The position numbers were made by a program, and so were the translations under genes. Positions 14,299-58,543 of a stretch of DNA of 60,006 nt are shown piece after piece. Position 1 is the stretch's first letter, and every line of letters starts with the position of its first letter. The notes under the pieces were generated by a model that did no database searches, was not told where the DNA came from, and worked only from the letters and a program-made list of their open reading frames with translations. The DNA is taken from contig NZ_JXYP01000027.1 of assembly GCF_000964005.1 (NCBI RefSeq), positions 1 through 60,006 of the forward strand. The letters run 5' to 3'. This DNA is from Williamsia herbipolensis. GTDB taxonomy: Bacteria > Actinomycetota > Actinomycetes > Mycobacteriales > Mycobacteriaceae.

Positions 14299-48483
<34,185 letters not shown>

Positions 48484-48718: not shown

Positions 48719-49159
48719 TCAGGCTCCGGTGAGCCGGCTGGCGATCCCCCGCAGGTCGATCTCACTCGTCCGCATGGTGCGGACGGGGGTTGCGGCGGCG
48801 GCGATCTCGAGTTCGGCGAGGTCGGCCATGATGCGGGCGAAGGTACCGTCGACGACGGAGGCGACGGTGGCAGGATCCCGCTCGGTGGACAACGAGGGCA
48901 TACCGGCGAAGACGGCGGCCACGATGGCGGCGCGGTCGTCCATCTGCTGGCTACGGGTGACCGGCACCATCAGTTCGATGGCGGCGTCGAGTTCCCGGTA
49001 GTTGAGCGACCGGTAGTGGTAACGGCACACGACCCGGTTGGGCGCGGACTCCGCGATTCGGCGAACCGTGCCGATCAGGTCCGAGGGGGCGATGCCGCGC
49101 GCCTCGACGAGATCGTGCTCCACGGTCGTTCCCCCCGACCGAACTGCTGCGAATGCCAT
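48719..49159 (-). CDS. Small free-standing A-domain-like mini-domain protein (copy s1)
   Basis: 146 residues from ATG 49159, which has AGGGG six bases upstream; GTG 49183 would add eight residues. Residues about 27-118 follow the mini-domain plan: SDLIGTVRRIAESAPNRVV, SLNYRELDAAIELM (matching the TYxELD start of A domains), MDDRAAIVAAVFAGMPSL, DPATVASVVDGTFARI. None of the later A-domain motifs exist, so it cannot adenylate. It lies between mbtH and the NRPS on the same strand, about 235 bases before the NRPS start. I do not recognise a named family. It may be a subunit or modulator of the NRPS; this is inference from position and similarity to m1 and m2. Confidence 0.75.
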   Translation of the reverse strand: MAFAAVRSGGTTVEHDLVEARGIAPSDLIGTVRRIAESAPNRVVCRYHYRSLNYRELDAAIELMVPVTRSQQMDDRAAIVAAVFAGMPSLSTERDPATVASVVDGTFARIMADLAELEIAAAATPVRTMRTSEIDLRGIASRLTGA

Positions 49160-49421
49160 CTTGAACCCCTGATTCCCGGTCACCGTGCTTGGTGTAGGGA
49201 CACATTAACGGGTGGTGTGGGTCGCTGGGGTATCTGTTTCGTTACAGACTGGAACGGTAAACGCTGGTACTTCTCCACAAAAGGCGCTCTGAGCTGCACT
49301 TTCGCGTCTGAGAACGATGTCGATCGCGTTACATTGACAGGTGATCCGTGTCACATTCGAGCGCGATTCGTGTCCCGACACGGGCGTGTCGGCCGCCGGG
49401 CGAGGTGCCGGCGGGTGGAGA
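49160..49421 (-). promoter_or_regulatory. Lower-GC spacer between mbtH and s1, probable promoter region
   Basis: About 49195-49330 is visibly poorer in GC than its surroundings, and reading leftward it could hold a promoter for s1 and the NRPS. No -35/-10 pair is convincing. An 8-bp hairpin (49375-49382 with 49385-49392) 30 bases past the mbtH stop could attenuate read-through. Confidence 0.3.
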
Positions 49422-49643
49422 TCACTGCGCCGAATCGGCCTCCATGGCCTCGATCAGGCTCTTGGGCCGCAGGTCGGTCCAGTGCTCGTTGACGTAGTCG
49501 AGGCACTCCGCACGCGACGCCTCGCCGAACACCTTGTCCCAGCCCGCGGGGATGTCGACGAAGGTGGGCCACAGGGAGTGCTGGTTCTCCGCGTTCACCA
49601 GCACGAAGAAGCGGCCGTTCTCGTCGTCGAAGGGATTGCTCAT
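49422..49643 (-). CDS. MbtH-family NRPS chaperone
   Basis: 73 residues, full length. It has the family signature [19 protein letters not shown] and the later WTDLRPKSL. MbtH proteins bind the N-terminal subdomain of A domains and are needed for solubility or activity of many actinobacterial A domains. It sits between the two mini-domain proteins and upstream of the NRPS on the same strand. The ATG at 49643 was chosen because it gives the canonical SNPFDDENG start; the longer open frame is antisense-type noise. Confidence 0.96.
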
Positions 49644-49740
49644 GGATGCGGTCCCACTCTCTGTCTGGTCGGAGCCGGCGCACCGGGCGCGGCGGACGGT
49701 TCTGAAGGGCTCGGGCGGTGTCGGGCGAACCCGGTCGGTC

Positions 49741-50097
49741 TCAGACGCGCTCGGCGCCCGCGAGGGCCACCGACGCCTGCACACGCAACGAGATCAATGT
49801 AGCGGCCAGGCCGGCCGGACCCGACAGGGCGAGGCCGGGCACGTTCATCATCAGGGCGACGGTGAGCGCGGAGTCGTCGATGACGTCCCCGCCCGACATC
49901 GCTCCGACGGCGCCGAACGCCGAGGTGGCCAGCTGACCGAAGGTGATGGTGAGACCGGGCTTGCAGATCGCGGGCTGTCCCGGGGCGATCGCCGCGGCCG
50001 CCCCGACGAGCTGACCCAGGGTGCGCGTGTCGTCGATCTGGCTGACACGGACGCGATCGGTGGTGCTCGCCTTCTGCGAACGAAGCTGCATCGCCAC
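49741..50097 (-). CDS. Small free-standing A-domain-like mini-domain protein (copy s2)
   Basis: 118 residues from GTG 50097, with GGGAGAG five bases upstream. Residues about 26-118 follow the same plan as s1, m1 and m2: [70 protein letters not shown]. There is no nucleotide-binding loop or hinge Lys. It is the first gene of the minus-strand series s2-mbtH-s1-NRPS and is divergent from the exporter operon. No named family is recognised. A helper or docking role for the NRPS or MbtH is inferred. Confidence 0.75.
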
Positions 50098-54430: not shown

Positions 54431-54878
54431 CGCTGACGTCGAGGGAGGCGATCACCTTGACCGGTTCGATCCACACCACGAGTTCCCCGGGGACCCCGTT
54501 GCGCGCGCCGAACTCCTCGGCGCGGTCGGCACCCATGTAGCGACCGCCCGCCGCCGTGGCGATGCGTCGCACCTCGTCGAGGTCGTCGCTGATCTGCACT
54601 CGCCCCTGCACCTGGACGAAGGCGTACGGCGGCTCGGGGAGGTCGACGCAGAGCACCACACGCGGATCACGCTGCAGCGCCCGCCCTTTCGCCGTGTCGG
54701 CGCCGGTGTTGAAGGCGATGCGCAGGTCGGCCCCGCCGTCGTCAGCGGTGCGTTCGTCGAGCACGAACCACACCGGCGCGATGAGCGGACGTCCGTCGGA
54801 TGCAGTGAATCCCAGCATGCCGGTACGGGTTCCGGTGGACAGGAACTCCCGGACCGCCGGGTCGCCTAGTGAGGTCAC
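54426..54878 (-). CDS. PPOX-class F420/FMN-dependent reductase-like protein
   Basis: 150 residues from GTG 54878, which overlaps the mftG stop by four bases (GTGA); longer frames are spurious. The split-barrel features are REFLSTGTRTGMLGFTASDG, PLIAPVWFVLDE, TAKGRALQRDPRVVLCVD and FVQVQGRVQIS. Such proteins bind F420 or FMN/heme-type cofactors. Its coupling to mftG suggests a redox function next to mycofactocin chemistry, but its substrate is unknown. Confidence 0.85.
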   Translation of the reverse strand: MTSLGDPAVREFLSTGTRTGMLGFTASDGRPLIAPVWFVLDERTADDGGADLRIAFNTGADTAKGRALQRDPRVVLCVDLPEPPYAFVQVQGRVQISDDLDEVRRIATAAGGRYMGADRAEEFGARNGVPGELVVWIEPVKVIASLDVSA

Positions 54879-56221
54879 GATCCGACGATACCGCTGCGCG
54901 CCGAGAGCGGTTCGGCAATGGCGTCGGCGATCCGGGCCGCCATCATCATCGTCGTCGCGTGCGGTCCGCTCGACAGGGCGCCCGGGAGGATCGATCCGTC
55001 GACCACACGCAGACCCTCGACGCCGATCACCCCGCCGAGCGCGTCGGTGGCCGCACCCATCGGCATCGTGCCCCAGGCGTGGTGCGACGTCGCGAGCACC
55101 GGGTCGATCGTCACGCTGCCGTTCTCCACGAGGTCGGCGTGCGCAGCTCCCTCGAGCATCTCCACGACCCGGTGCGACCACCGCCGCATGCCGTCGCCCA
55201 CGGCCTGGGCGGCGCCGATGTCGATACCGACGGCACCGTCGGCGTCGACGGTCAGGTGTCCGCTCGCCCCCGGGACCATGCCCGCCACCCCGACGGCCGG
55301 GCCCGAGCGCGCCACACCGGTGATGTGGTCGGCGAAATCAGCGTTGTAGCAGCGGATCTCGAAACCGTCCTCGGTGTGCAGAACGGTCGGGAGCAGGGGG
55401 AGGCCGGCGCGGGTGCGGGGCGCCGGGGTCCGTTCGCGGTAACGGACCAGGATCTCGCGGTGTTCACCCAGCGGGAAGGTCGACGGTGTCCGGCCGGCCG
55501 AGCGGGCGAGGAGCGTCGCGCTCGCCAGGGTGCCCGCGCAGAGGATCACCTCGTCGGCGGGGATCGTCTCTCCACCGGCGCGGACACCGGTCGCCGTGCC
55601 GTCGGACACCAGCACCTCGTCGACAGTGGTGTCGGCAACGATCCGTAGCGACGGTCGGGCGCGGACGGCGGCCGTGAGGAACGCCCGGTCGGCGGACACC
55701 CGTCGGACGCGGTCGGCGTTGACACGCACCCGGTTGACGCCGACGGTCGGCCATTCCGTGCCGACGAGGTCATATCCTGTTCTGTGCCAATATCTCTCGA
55801 AGGCCATGGCGCGCGGGTGGAGCTCGGTGTCGTCGACGCGGCGGACCGACATCACACCGCCGGACCCGCCGCCGTCGAGGATGCGGTGGAATCGCTCGAC
55901 GGTGTCGATGTCCCACCAGCGTCGATCCCAGCCGTCGAGGTCGGCGCGGTGACCGCGCAGGAAGTAGCCGCCGTTGACGACCGACGACCCGCCCACCCCG
56001 GCGCCGCGGACGAGATCGAGACCGTCGACCGTGCGATACCGCCGCACGCGGTGCGCATCGGGTCCCACGGGGAGACGGGACACACGGAGGTCGGCGTCGG
56101 TCGGGGTGTCGCGGCCCGCCTCGACGAGGGTCACGAGAACGTGGTCACCGCGCGAGAGACGCTCGGCCACCACGCATCCGCAGCTGCCCGCACCGACCAC
56201 CACGACACGACGCGGTGTCAC
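54875..56221 (-). CDS. mftG: GMC-family oxidoreductase MftG
   Basis: 448 residues from GTG 56221, seven bases after mftF. The FAD-binding motif VVVVGAGSCGCVVAERLSRG is at the N-terminus. The GMC C-terminal block reads HHAWGTMPMGAATDALGGV, then LRVVDGSILPG and GPHATTMMMAARIADAI, with the catalytic His pair. In mycobacteria MftG links reduced mycofactocin to electron transport. Identity rests on its place after mftE and mftF as well as the family match. Confidence 0.9.
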   Translation of the reverse strand: MTPRRVVVVGAGSCGCVVAERLSRGDHVLVTLVEAGRDTPTDADLRVSRLPVGPDAHRVRRYRTVDGLDLVRGAGVGGSSVVNGGYFLRGHRADLDGWDRRWWDIDTVERFHRILDGGGSGGVMSVRRVDDTELHPRAMAFERYWHRTGYDLVGTEWPTVGVNRVRVNADRVRRVSADRAFLTAAVRARPSLRIVADTTVDEVLVSDGTATGVRAGGETIPADEVILCAGTLASATLLARSAGRTPSTFPLGEHREILVRYRERTPAPRTRAGLPLLPTVLHTEDGFEIRCYNADFADHITGVARSGPAVGVAGMVPGASGHLTVDADGAVGIDIGAAQAVGDGMRRWSHRVVEMLEGAAHADLVENGSVTIDPVLATSHHAWGTMPMGAATDALGGVIGVEGLRVVDGSILPGALSSGPHATTMMMAARIADAIAEPLSARSGIVGS

Positions 56222-56228
56222 GAGCGGC

Positions 56229-57830
56229 TCACGAATGCGATGGCGCGGCCCCCTCGGTGACCGCACGTCTCTCCGCGATCCGCCCGGACGTCGCGTGCCG
56301 CTCCGCGGCGTGGACGGATCCGATGACCGGTCGCAGCGCACCCGCCGCCCGTGCGGCGAGCACGCCCTCCCACAGACCGGCACCGTAGGCGAGGTCGTCG
56401 AGGCGTTTGAGGATCACGAACCGGGCGACACCGAGGCGCTGCACCGGGTCGGGGTTGAGCATCTCCGAGCGCACCCATTCGACGAGGCCGTCGGCGAGGG
56501 CGACGGCGAGCAGCACCTGACGGAACCGGGCCGAGAACACCGCGAGCACGACCGACAGCGGCCAGTAGTGCCGACACAGCGCCGAGGCGAACTGCAGGAA
56601 CCCGAACCCCATCGACTGTGCGGTCAGCTTCGCCGCCACCGAGAACGCGTCGGGGACGTGCGACACCCGGCCGTGCAGACGTCGTCCGATGATCGCGATC
56701 ATCGCCACCAGCAGGCCCAGCCCCCATCGCGAGCGGGTCAGCACGCCGAGTGCCGCCACGGCCATGGGGACCGTCATCACGATCGGCGCCGCGAGGGTGG
56801 GATGGCGATCGCTCAGCAGGGCCGCCCCGGTCCCGTAGAAGCGTCGGCGTCGCAGCGCCGGACCGAGCCGGTCGCGGTGATCGTGCGCCGCGACGGCGAT
56901 GGGGTCGTACCGGATGACCCAGCCCGCAGACGTGATGCGCCAGCAGAGGTCGACGTCCTCGGCCACGTGCAGCGACTCGTCGAACCCGCCCGTCGAAACC
57001 TCACGGAACACGCTGCGGCGCACTATGATCGCAGCACTCGGCACGTACGGGACACGCGTACCCGGCGCCACCGCGCTCTCCCGACGCCCCATGTCGAGCG
57101 ACGAGCACAGCGCCTCGTAGCGCGCCATCGGGCCGCCGTCGGGGGTCATCGCGACGATGCGTGGCGCCACCATCGCGACGCGGTCGTCGGAGAAATGCGC
57201 GAGAAGCTTGAACAGCCAACCGGATTCGGGGACGACGTCGGAGTCGACGAAGGCGATGAGATCGGTCTCGACGCGACGGGCCCCGTGGTTGCGCGCGGCC
57301 GCCGGACCGACGCTGCGATCGAGACGGAGGAGCTCGACCTCTTCCCCACGCCCCGCGTCGCCGACGACGACCGGTGTCGCGGAGCCGTCGTCGACGACGA
57401 CGACACGGACCCCGACCAGTGCGGCGAGCAACCGATCGACCCCGGATTGGTTGTCGCGCACCGGGATGACCACGGTCACGTCCCCGGTGTCGGGCCCGAA
57501 CATGGGCCGCGGATGGGCGACCCCGGCGTCGAGCAGACGACGACCCAGGGTCGCCGAGGAGGGACCCGAGACCACCAGTCGGCCGTCGGCATCGATCATG
57601 TCGACCGCCGCGGGGGACAGGGTCAGCAGGCGCATCGGGGATCCGCCCAGGAGGTGCCGGCGCGTTGCGGGGTTGACGACGGTGCCCAGGTCGAGCTGCA
57701 CCTGGAACCCGTCGGGCAGTTCCTGCGGCGTGCGCACCGGCGCGTTCTCCGTCGCCTCCTCGGACCCGCCGTCGGCCGTGGCCTCGGGATCGGTCGCGTC
57801 GGTGTCGGCACCCTCGGTTCGACGGGTCAT
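56229..57830 (-). CDS. mftF: Mycofactocin glycosyltransferase MftF
   Basis: 533 residues from ATG 57830, which overlaps the mftE stop (ATGA). Residues about 1-40 are acidic and disordered. A PqqD-like segment follows (VQLDLGTVVNPATRRHLLGG, RLLTLSPAAVDMI). The GT2 domain has VTVVIPVRDNQSGVDRLLAA, the metal-binding DSD in LIAFVDSDVVPESGW, and AEDVDLCWRITSAGW. Two or more hydrophobic segments after about residue 340 anchor it to the membrane. In mycobacteria MftF adds the beta-1,4-glucose chain to mycofactocin. It is somewhat longer than usual because of the N-terminal tail. Confidence 0.92.
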   Translation of the reverse strand: MTRRTEGADTDATDPEATADGGSEEATENAPVRTPQELPDGFQVQLDLGTVVNPATRRHLLGGSPMRLLTLSPAAVDMIDADGRLVVSGPSSATLGRRLLDAGVAHPRPMFGPDTGDVTVVIPVRDNQSGVDRLLAALVGVRVVVVDDGSATPVVVGDAGRGEEVELLRLDRSVGPAAARNHGARRVETDLIAFVDSDVVPESGWLFKLLAHFSDDRVAMVAPRIVAMTPDGGPMARYEALCSSLDMGRRESAVAPGTRVPYVPSAAIIVRRSVFREVSTGGFDESLHVAEDVDLCWRITSAGWVIRYDPIAVAAHDHRDRLGPALRRRRFYGTGAALLSDRHPTLAAPIVMTVPMAVAALGVLTRSRWGLGLLVAMIAIIGRRLHGRVSHVPDAFSVAAKLTAQSMGFGFLQFASALCRHYWPLSVVLAVFSARFRQVLLAVALADGLVEWVRSEMLNPDPVQRLGVARFVILKRLDDLAYGAGLWEGVLAARAAGALRPVIGSVHAAERHATSGRIAERRAVTEGAAPSHS

Positions 57831-58543
57831 CGCAGGACGCCGTGTTCGTCGGGCGACCATCGACGTACCGCGTCGGCCAGTCGCGTCGCCATCGCGGCGA
57901 GGTGGGCGCGCCCGTCGTCGGGATGTCCACGCCGCGGGTCGCCGAGCACCCCGTTCGGGCTCACCGCACGCACACCCGATGATCGCAGGGTGGGCATGAG
58001 ATCGGCGACGGCGGCGGTGGTGCCAACCGCGACGGCGTCCGATCGCACGGTCTCCGGCGAGATGTGCAGCAGGAGTGCGGTTTCGGTGGCACCGGCGTGC
58101 GCGTCGGCGCCGGCCACGGCGCACGGGAACCAGGCCGCGTCGCGCCCCTCGACCCGGAGCAGGCCGACCGCGTCGATCAGGGTGGCGACGTTGCCGCCGT
58201 GGCCGTTGACGAAGACGATGCGTGCGGCCCACCGGCAAGCGCTGCGGCCGTACTCGACGAGGACCTGTCGCAGCGCCTCGTGTCCGATGGAGATCGTGCC
58301 GGGGAAGTCCTCGTGCTCGCCGCTGGCGCCGTAGGCCAGCGCCGGGGCCAGCAGCGTCGGCCCGTCGTCGGCTCCGAGCGTGGCGCAGGCACCGTCGGCC
58401 ACGGCACCGGCGATACGCGTGTCGGTGTCGAGGGGCAGATGCGGGCCGTGCTGCTCGACCGACCCGACAGGGACCACGAGCGTGACCTGCCGGTCGTCGA
58501 GTTCGGTCCAGGTCGCCGCGCCGAGCCCACCGGAGCAGATCAT
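57827..58543 (-). CDS. mftE: Mycofactocin peptidase MftE (creatininase family)
   Basis: 238 residues from ATG 58543; the open frame runs further upstream but no family member needs it. Metal-binding motifs are VGSVEQHGPHLPLDTDT, NGHGGN and GADAHAGATET. MftE cleaves the modified C-terminal Val-Tyr dipeptide from the MftA peptide to give the AHDP precursor. It begins the E-F-G series on the minus strand, but mftA-D, which normally precede it, are not in the window; the gene upstream is a divergent racemase. Confidence 0.92.
   Translation of the reverse strand: MICSGGLGAATWTELDDRQVTLVVPVGSVEQHGPHLPLDTDTRIAGAVADGACATLGADDGPTLLAPALAYGASGEHEDFPGTISIGHEALRQVLVEYGRSACRWAARIVFVNGHGGNVATLIDAVGLLRVEGRDAAWFPCAVAGADAHAGATETALLLHISPETVRSDAVAVGTTAAVADLMPTLRSSGVRAVSPNGVLGDPRRGHPDDGRAHLAAMATRLADAVRRWSPDEHGVLR

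Follow-up and report, generated by a model that had tools for sequence, protein, structure and literature searches.

Short domains derived from the start of adenylation domains, paired at C/A cuts of synthetases in Rhodococcus-like bacteria: a candidate class of docking domain

The mini-domains of the Williamsia herbipolensis NRPS locus

The window, a 60,006-nucleotide stretch of Williamsia herbipolensis DNA (NCBI RefSeq assembly GCF_000964005.1, contig NZ_JXYP01000027.1, positions 1 to 60,006 of the forward strand), was found to carry the gene for a giant nonribosomal peptide synthetase (NRPS) together with three small genes in the order s2-mbtH-s1-NRPS, all on the minus strand (Table 1). Only the gene between s1 and s2 matched the MbtH family of Pfam, and s1 and s2 did not. 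The products of s1 and s2 resemble two segments, m1 and m2, embedded in the giant NRPS, each between a condensation (C) and an adenylation (A) domain. As judged by sequence comparison, s1, s2, m1 and m2 are one family of domains of about 90 aa, here designated mini-A_N domains or minis. Each is made up of the first ~60–75 residues of an A domain and two extra helices.

Table 1. Positions of the mini-domains and of other genes and loci referred to in the text. Positions are those of the window unless a locus (L) is named.
Feature	Position	Strand	Description
s1	48719..49159	-	Free-standing mini-A_N protein, 146 aa; clade s1/s3
mbtH	49422..49643	-	73 aa, between s1 and s2; Pfam PF03621, E 6.6e-29
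s2	49741..50097	-	Free-standing mini-A_N protein, 118 aa; clade s2, near C-side types, position unresolved
m1	38843..39126	-	Embedded mini-A_N, between C domain and Ser-type A domain of module 3
m2	32032..32319	-	Embedded mini-A_N, between C domain and Ser-type A domain of module 5
Giant NRPS	14299..48483	-	11,394 aa, carries m1 and m2
GMC oxidoreductase	54875..56383	-	Adjoins the glycosyltransferase gene
Family-2 glycosyltransferase	56229..58238	-
C-mini end, Nocardia-like	L123 8336..10894		Downstream ORF opens with A, no mini
C-mini end, Nocardia-like	L124 8336..10897		Downstream ORF opens with A, no mini
Divergent free mini, genome G030	L245 3671..4216	-	182-aa ORF
Third free minis of g11 genomes	L142, L144, L160, L239, L241, L243, L246, L247		s3 type, downstream of giant NRPS

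That the four segments are alike had been claimed in the original prediction, made from the window only, and the claim was borne out by sequence searches, with s1 as the weakest member. Used alone as the query, s2 recovered m2 in its own genome (E 2.3e-5). A profile built from eight s2 proteins, with no NRPS sequence included, was searched against nine proteins and matched both embedded sites in all eight NRPSs of the window's genus (i-E 1.2e-2 to 2.2e-9) and, at 5.7e-14, a further NRPS at its C-terminus; the starts of ordinary A domains were matched as well, in some cases with equal strength (best 1.7e-7) and mostly along a shorter part of the profile. A profile combining s2 with embedded copies separated the two kinds of site: in each giant it gave 42–103 bits at two places, along almost the whole profile, and at true A-domain starts at most 38 bits, with the match over by about position 67; the six embedded or C-terminal copies included in this profile match it by construction.

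The most conserved of the four is m2 and the most divergent is s1, which shows weak direct similarity to residues 3–59 of DltA (E 0.019) and matched the m1 site in two of the eight NRPSs with values of 4.4e-4 and 2.5e-3, and in two more with values above 0.1. It is tied into the family because a profile of C-side minis (described below) made without s1 scored the s1-type open reading frames (ORFs) of L141, L143, L145, L147 and L148 at 29, 26, 25, 26 and 16 bits, respectively, and because s1 forms one clade with other free minis, designated s3 (Shimodaira-Hasegawa-like approximate likelihood ratio test (SH-aLRT) 100).

By sequence, the minis descend from the N-terminal part of an A domain. The first ~57 residues of m2 matched many profiles of A domains and of the ANL superfamily (best 4.8e-6), and m2 matched Pfam AMP-binding (PF00501) with an E value of 2.2e-4 and 20.6 bits, below the cut-off of 29.9. 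There was no Pfam hit for s1, s2 or m1, and PF00501 gave a weak match in 1 of 17 C-side rows and 2 of 14 N-side rows. Profile matches between minis and PDB sequences were in register with the N-terminal part of A_core. These similarities stop near residue 60–75, and the full A_core with its ATP-binding motifs is absent; the earlier statement that the segments have no ATP-binding or hinge motif held, as the A-domain matches end before them, and the Ala-rich end described there corresponds to two helices in the model of s2. Compared with ANL domains, to whose first ~60–75 residues they are homologous, the minis lack all catalytic motifs, the rest of A_core and A_sub. In sequence, a mini corresponds to the opening alpha-beta-beta-alpha unit of an A domain (the fold being predicted), broken off ahead of all catalytic motifs and completed with two new helices.

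Paired minis where C and A are divided between proteins

In other genomes, minis were found at the ends of NRPS subunits. At 72 of 74 ORFs ending in a C domain, a mini and a stop codon, the next ORF on the same strand opened with a mini followed by an A domain. The first, C-side mini lay within 1–23 residues of the stop, and the first domain of the next ORF began 34–203 nt past it. The 74 ends span ten genus labels, and 69 complete pairs yielded 48 non-redundant pairs at under 93% identity; neither 74 nor the 340 plain joints given below is a count of independent cases, since several of the G loci are on the same contigs as named loci. The two exceptions are Nocardia-like (Table 1), and their partner mini may have been lost or may lie elsewhere.

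Some of the earlier loci had been chosen for two adjacent matches. The 38 loci of a scan requiring a C-side mini only were chosen without that, and the arrangement C-mini-stop followed by start-mini-A was present at all 38. The carriers were Prescottella equi, P. defluvii and P. agglutinans, Rhodococcus erythropolis, R. qingshengii, R. globerulus, R. aetherivorans, R. zopfii, R. phenolicus, R. maanshanensis and others, as well as Rhodococcoides and Antrihabitans. At one of these loci, L196, the downstream ORF is interrupted behind its mini. L196 and L116 belong to the same genome, Prescottella defluvii SampleD3_15, whose NRPS is fragmented into numerous frames that overlap, apparently through sequencing error.

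Of the ORFs in these and the other loci read whose start is real, 70 opened with mini-A, 30 with C (none with a mini), six with A and four with T. The six A-starting ORFs comprise the two known exceptions, one ORF in L228 and three frame fragments, of which two share a genome. Real ORF ends were C-mini in 71 cases, C in 13 (ten epimerization-like ends of giants and three frame fragments), A in 10 and T in 6. Within chains, 340 C-A joints had no mini, or about 347 when seven reclassified joints are added (overlapping loci counted as they come); these seven, out of 29 supposed internal minis, were rejected as A-domain edges. Embedded minis with C and A on one chain numbered 22, from 11 giants, besides the two of the window. 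All eight giants of the genus that were read whole held two each, as did four partly read giants of other genera. A mini marks particular C-A joints and, when a mini-bearing joint is cut, each half retains one.

Three genomes of the window's genus (G002, G003 and G005; L030, L113 and L114) have a second NRPS cluster roughly 20–50 kb from the giant. It is split between C-mini and mini-A after two modules, before A3, which is the place of m1 in the giants.

To determine the range of the minis, 394 genomes from the class and 298 from the order were scanned, one of the two scans at E 1e-7. Among the matches listed, those reaching at least position 84 of the 96 in the profile were all in the window's own bacterial family, to which Rhodococcus and Prescottella belong, and those outside it were A-domain starts (positions 4–82, E 2.3e-8 or weaker). 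Rhodococcus, Prescottella, Rhodococcoides and Antrihabitans are the named carriers; probable further carriers are relatives of Gordonia (label g9) and Nocardia (g22), both genus names being putative.

Types of mini, the A domain behind them and the free-standing copies

A tree was computed from 113 sequences over 89 columns, with 53 of its 110 inner branches weak. The labels C-side, N-side (for minis opening an ORF), m1, m2, s1, s2 and s3 required nine changes on it (minimum 6, shuffled mean 64.9), a clustering helped by near copies. The C-side and N-side types were largely distinct. The m2 sequences formed one clade (100) and shared a branch (80) with the Rhodococcus-like C-side and N-side minis, while the g9-type C-side and N-side minis formed separate sets; m1 appeared in two places, and s2 fell near the C-side types. 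Inspection by eye had suggested that s1 is an N-type mini, with which its placement on the tree does not agree.

The A domain behind an N-side mini was nearest to A5 or A3 of the giants, that is, to those of the mini-bearing modules, in 70 of 70 cases, compared with 54 of 90 for the other A domains of the same ORFs. No such tie was seen for the C domain ahead of a C-side mini, which was nearest to the giants' C before A8, A5, A7 or A6. Specificity codes were unreadable for 7 of 70 junction A domains and 79 of 325 plain ones. Among the readable, DVWHFS[LM]V[DE], a serine code, occurred in 56 of 63 A domains behind N-side minis, and DVWHFSLVD in 40 of 246 plain C-A modules. From these counts and the constant proximity to A5 or A3 it follows that mini and A domain travel together. 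Six other junction A domains, taken to be g9-type (loci among L104–L114), have different codes, e.g. DADNADMVY, and strict linkage to serine was rejected for this reason. The predicted association with Ser-loading A domains therefore stands for most junctions and fails for these six; in the Rhodococcus-like lineage, the codes indicate that the A domain behind a mini mostly loads serine. Rhodococcus itself is described in the accessible text of PMC5550956 as having many uncharacterised NRPS clusters, probably for lipopeptides and often predicted to be Ser/Thr-rich.

Orthologues of s1 and s2 were present in all eight genomes of the window's genus (g1), the window's included. The order s2-mbtH-s1-NRPS was found in these eight and in 10 of 11 further genomes, namely nine of nine with the label g11 (a strong s1 match being required) and one with g17. 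In g13 (L147) two free minis, one tentatively typed as s1 or s3 and the other as s2 or C-side, adjoin each other with no mbtH between them. The third type, s3, stood beside mbtH at all 11 fetched g9 loci (10 genomes), and in eight g11 genomes an s3-like third mini lay downstream of the giant NRPS, where the stretch fetched contained no mbtH. Genome G030 has a very divergent free mini (Table 1), with an NRPS nearby in L117; mbtH was not found there. When 301 genomes of the family were sampled, 46 gave a match to the s1 profile and 213 (26 of 31 genera) to the s2 profile, many of the weaker matches being ordinary A domains or acyl-CoA-synthetase-like ORFs as judged by ORF length and matched range.

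The median ratio of nonsynonymous to synonymous substitution rates (dN/dS) over 28 pairs was 0.24 for s1, 0.47 for s2, 0.63 for m1 and 0.18 for m2, and that of the A domain was 0.30 after m2 and 0.74 after m1. Conservation is thus higher in m2 than in the catalytic domain that follows it. Conservation and dN/dS support the earlier view of a working system and not debris.

Upstream of the NRPS region of the window lie adjoining genes for a glucose-methanol-choline (GMC) oxidoreductase and a glycosyltransferase (Table 1), a pair that looks like part of a mycofactocin cluster.

Proposed docking at the C/A cut and its alternatives

Docking domains are complementary pairs at subunit ends, and the NRPS classes, COM, PAX and betaHD, are placed at E/C or PCP (peptidyl carrier protein)/C in the accessible text of PMC9113145. 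Complementary partners at facing subunit ends are likewise what was found for 72 of the 74 C-mini ends, at C/A and not at the sites of these classes, the C-starting ORFs being free of minis. COM and PAX are also complementary pairs at NRPS subunit ends, but they are helix-hand or three-helix pieces, and none is described at C/A, or as carved from a catalytic domain, in the same portion of PMC9113145. The betaHD, which binds a short linear motif (SLiM), resembles the minis as a small domain at the ends of neighbouring NRPS or polyketide synthase (PKS)-NRPS subunits, and its alpha-beta-beta-alpha-alpha string with a central hairpin (PMC9113145, in part) is similar to that of the s2 model. In contrast to the minis, a homologous folded pair at C/A that is derived from A, the betaHD is tethered before C/Cy and has a short peptide as its partner (PMC9113145, same portion). 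Kinship with betaHD found no support: no chain named betaHD or docking domain was among the 50 PDB sequences listed, and betaHD was not seen among the fold-search matches listed, which showed ANL domains; histone rows in that list were taken to reflect a common helical arrangement. The nearest parallel to a C/A cut is the DHD of trans-acyltransferase (AT) PKSs, where the cut also falls inside a module (ketosynthase (KS)/dehydratase (DH)), but there a one-sided, largely disordered KS C-terminus of ~70 aa binds a DH surface (PMC9113145, in part), whereas the minis are folded and on both sides. No description of A-domain-derived minis or of docking at C/A was found in the literature searched, which was biased towards open access and included the accessible portions of PMC9113145, PMC5550956, PMC13324335 and PMC8150014.

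A paired, homologous, folded element at C/A fits the docking kind and none of these classes, and binding is therefore proposed. The family and its placement are solid; binding is what we infer. The docking adaptors envisaged in the original prediction gain support from the gene architecture outside the window, with a mini on both sides of the cuts. In a module split at C/A, one mini would stay on the C side and a second would head the A side, and the two would bind each other, joining a module whose C and A lie on separate proteins. On this architecture, it is somewhat likely that the C-side and N-side minis work as a docking pair by mutual binding, and the chances are about even that the minis are a new class of docking domain for C/A cuts with s1 and s2 as its free-standing members. 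The latter, made from the mbtH neighbourhood, would have m1 and m2, or one another, as partners and would thereby contribute to the assembly, dimerisation or gating of the giant NRPS, a role that is possible, with the balance of probability tilted against it. A more elaborate version, held to be rather doubtful, is that a pseudo-symmetric heterodimer of two A-derived minis permits the C/A cut, and that s1, s2 and s3 are diffusible plugs which would bind embedded or terminal minis and choose the A subunit to be coupled, making the line switchable in trans.

Several results weigh against docking. A tethered pair was modelled with AlphaFold from two adjacent intact Rhodococcus zopfii genes with the intervening stop read through (25 rows, 6 paired); both minis were predicted to be folded (predicted local distance difference test (pLDDT) 67–92 in 10-residue blocks), but the predicted template modelling score (pTM) was 0.45 and no confident packing was obtained. 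In partial Mantel tests on the 48 non-redundant of 69 complete pairs, C-side and N-side minis, given the flanking C and A domains, showed no excess co-evolution (r 0.028, 151 of 2000 permutations as high; in the larger lineage r -0.025, 1277 of 2000). A charge match was absent, C-side and N-side minis both being acidic, and the two Nocardia-like ends have no partner. The loci were found through their minis, and the C/A cuts covered are those that bear one. Six upstream regions of Rhodococcus-like giants (g23, g14 and g6) that have m1 and m2 contained no free mini, so an embedded mini does not depend on a free one; in these giants m1 and m2, without neighbouring free partners, perhaps pair with each other.

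Such pairing could be general, with m1 binding m2 within one giant NRPS chain or across two chains, and s1 binding s2 for a task of its own. Two embedded minis occur in all eight whole giants and also where no upstream free mini was found, and, in the genomes examined from g1, g11 and g17, the s1 and s2 types occur together. This arrangement is nonetheless conjectural and is held to be unlikely; in the neighbourhood seen in the g9 genome G210 (L111, L159), a free mini accompanies a single C-side and a single N-side mini, a set that does not divide evenly into pairs.

The lack of confident packing in the tethered pair would agree with a capping role, in which a mini mimics the A_N face and shields the surface of a C (or A) domain whose neighbour sits on another protein or has moved, serving solubility or stability and not docking. 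A_N, from which the minis derive, naturally adjoins C, and the minis are placed directly after C and before A. Capping is considered improbable, because it leaves minis on both sides and free-standing copies unexplained, and because the 22 embedded minis besides the window's two sit where C and A share one chain.

In a version of the original prediction that centres on MbtH, s1 and s2 would mimic A_N and bind this protein, whether as decoys, for storage or for handover. Decoys and allosteric partners, both named in that prediction, are conjectural. MbtH binds A domains, and free minis adjoin mbtH in 8 of 8 g1, 9 of 9 g11, 1 of 1 g17 and 11 of 11 fetched g9 cases, gene order being the evidence for the link. 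The minis, however, correspond to the first ~75 residues of A_N, while the MbtH contact lies much later in the A core, in a part that they lack; mbtH is not beside any of the eight fetched g11 third minis, the g13 pair or the G030 mini, and the C-side and N-side minis require no MbtH logic. A role through MbtH accordingly seems a long shot. That the minis are functionless scars left when modules were exchanged at the C-A linker, which is known as a border for such exchange (exchange units; accessible text of PMC8150014), would suit the joint movement of mini and A domain seen in 70 of 70 cases and the high dN/dS of m1, but is very improbable given their retention across ten genus labels, their pairing at 72 of 74 ends and the low dN/dS of s1 and m2.

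With docking as the preferred explanation, the minis probably couple the subunits of divided synthetases in Rhodococcus-like bacteria. Profile-based annotation would probably miss them, because neither Pfam nor NCBIfam showed a dedicated model for the segments tested. If the explanation is true, a natural, portable coupling at C/A explains the within-module cuts of very large actinobacterial synthetases, and a docking module was born from a fragment of a catalytic domain. For engineering, it would supply a matched pair at the C-A linker, which already serves as a boundary for exchange units (PMC8150014, in part).
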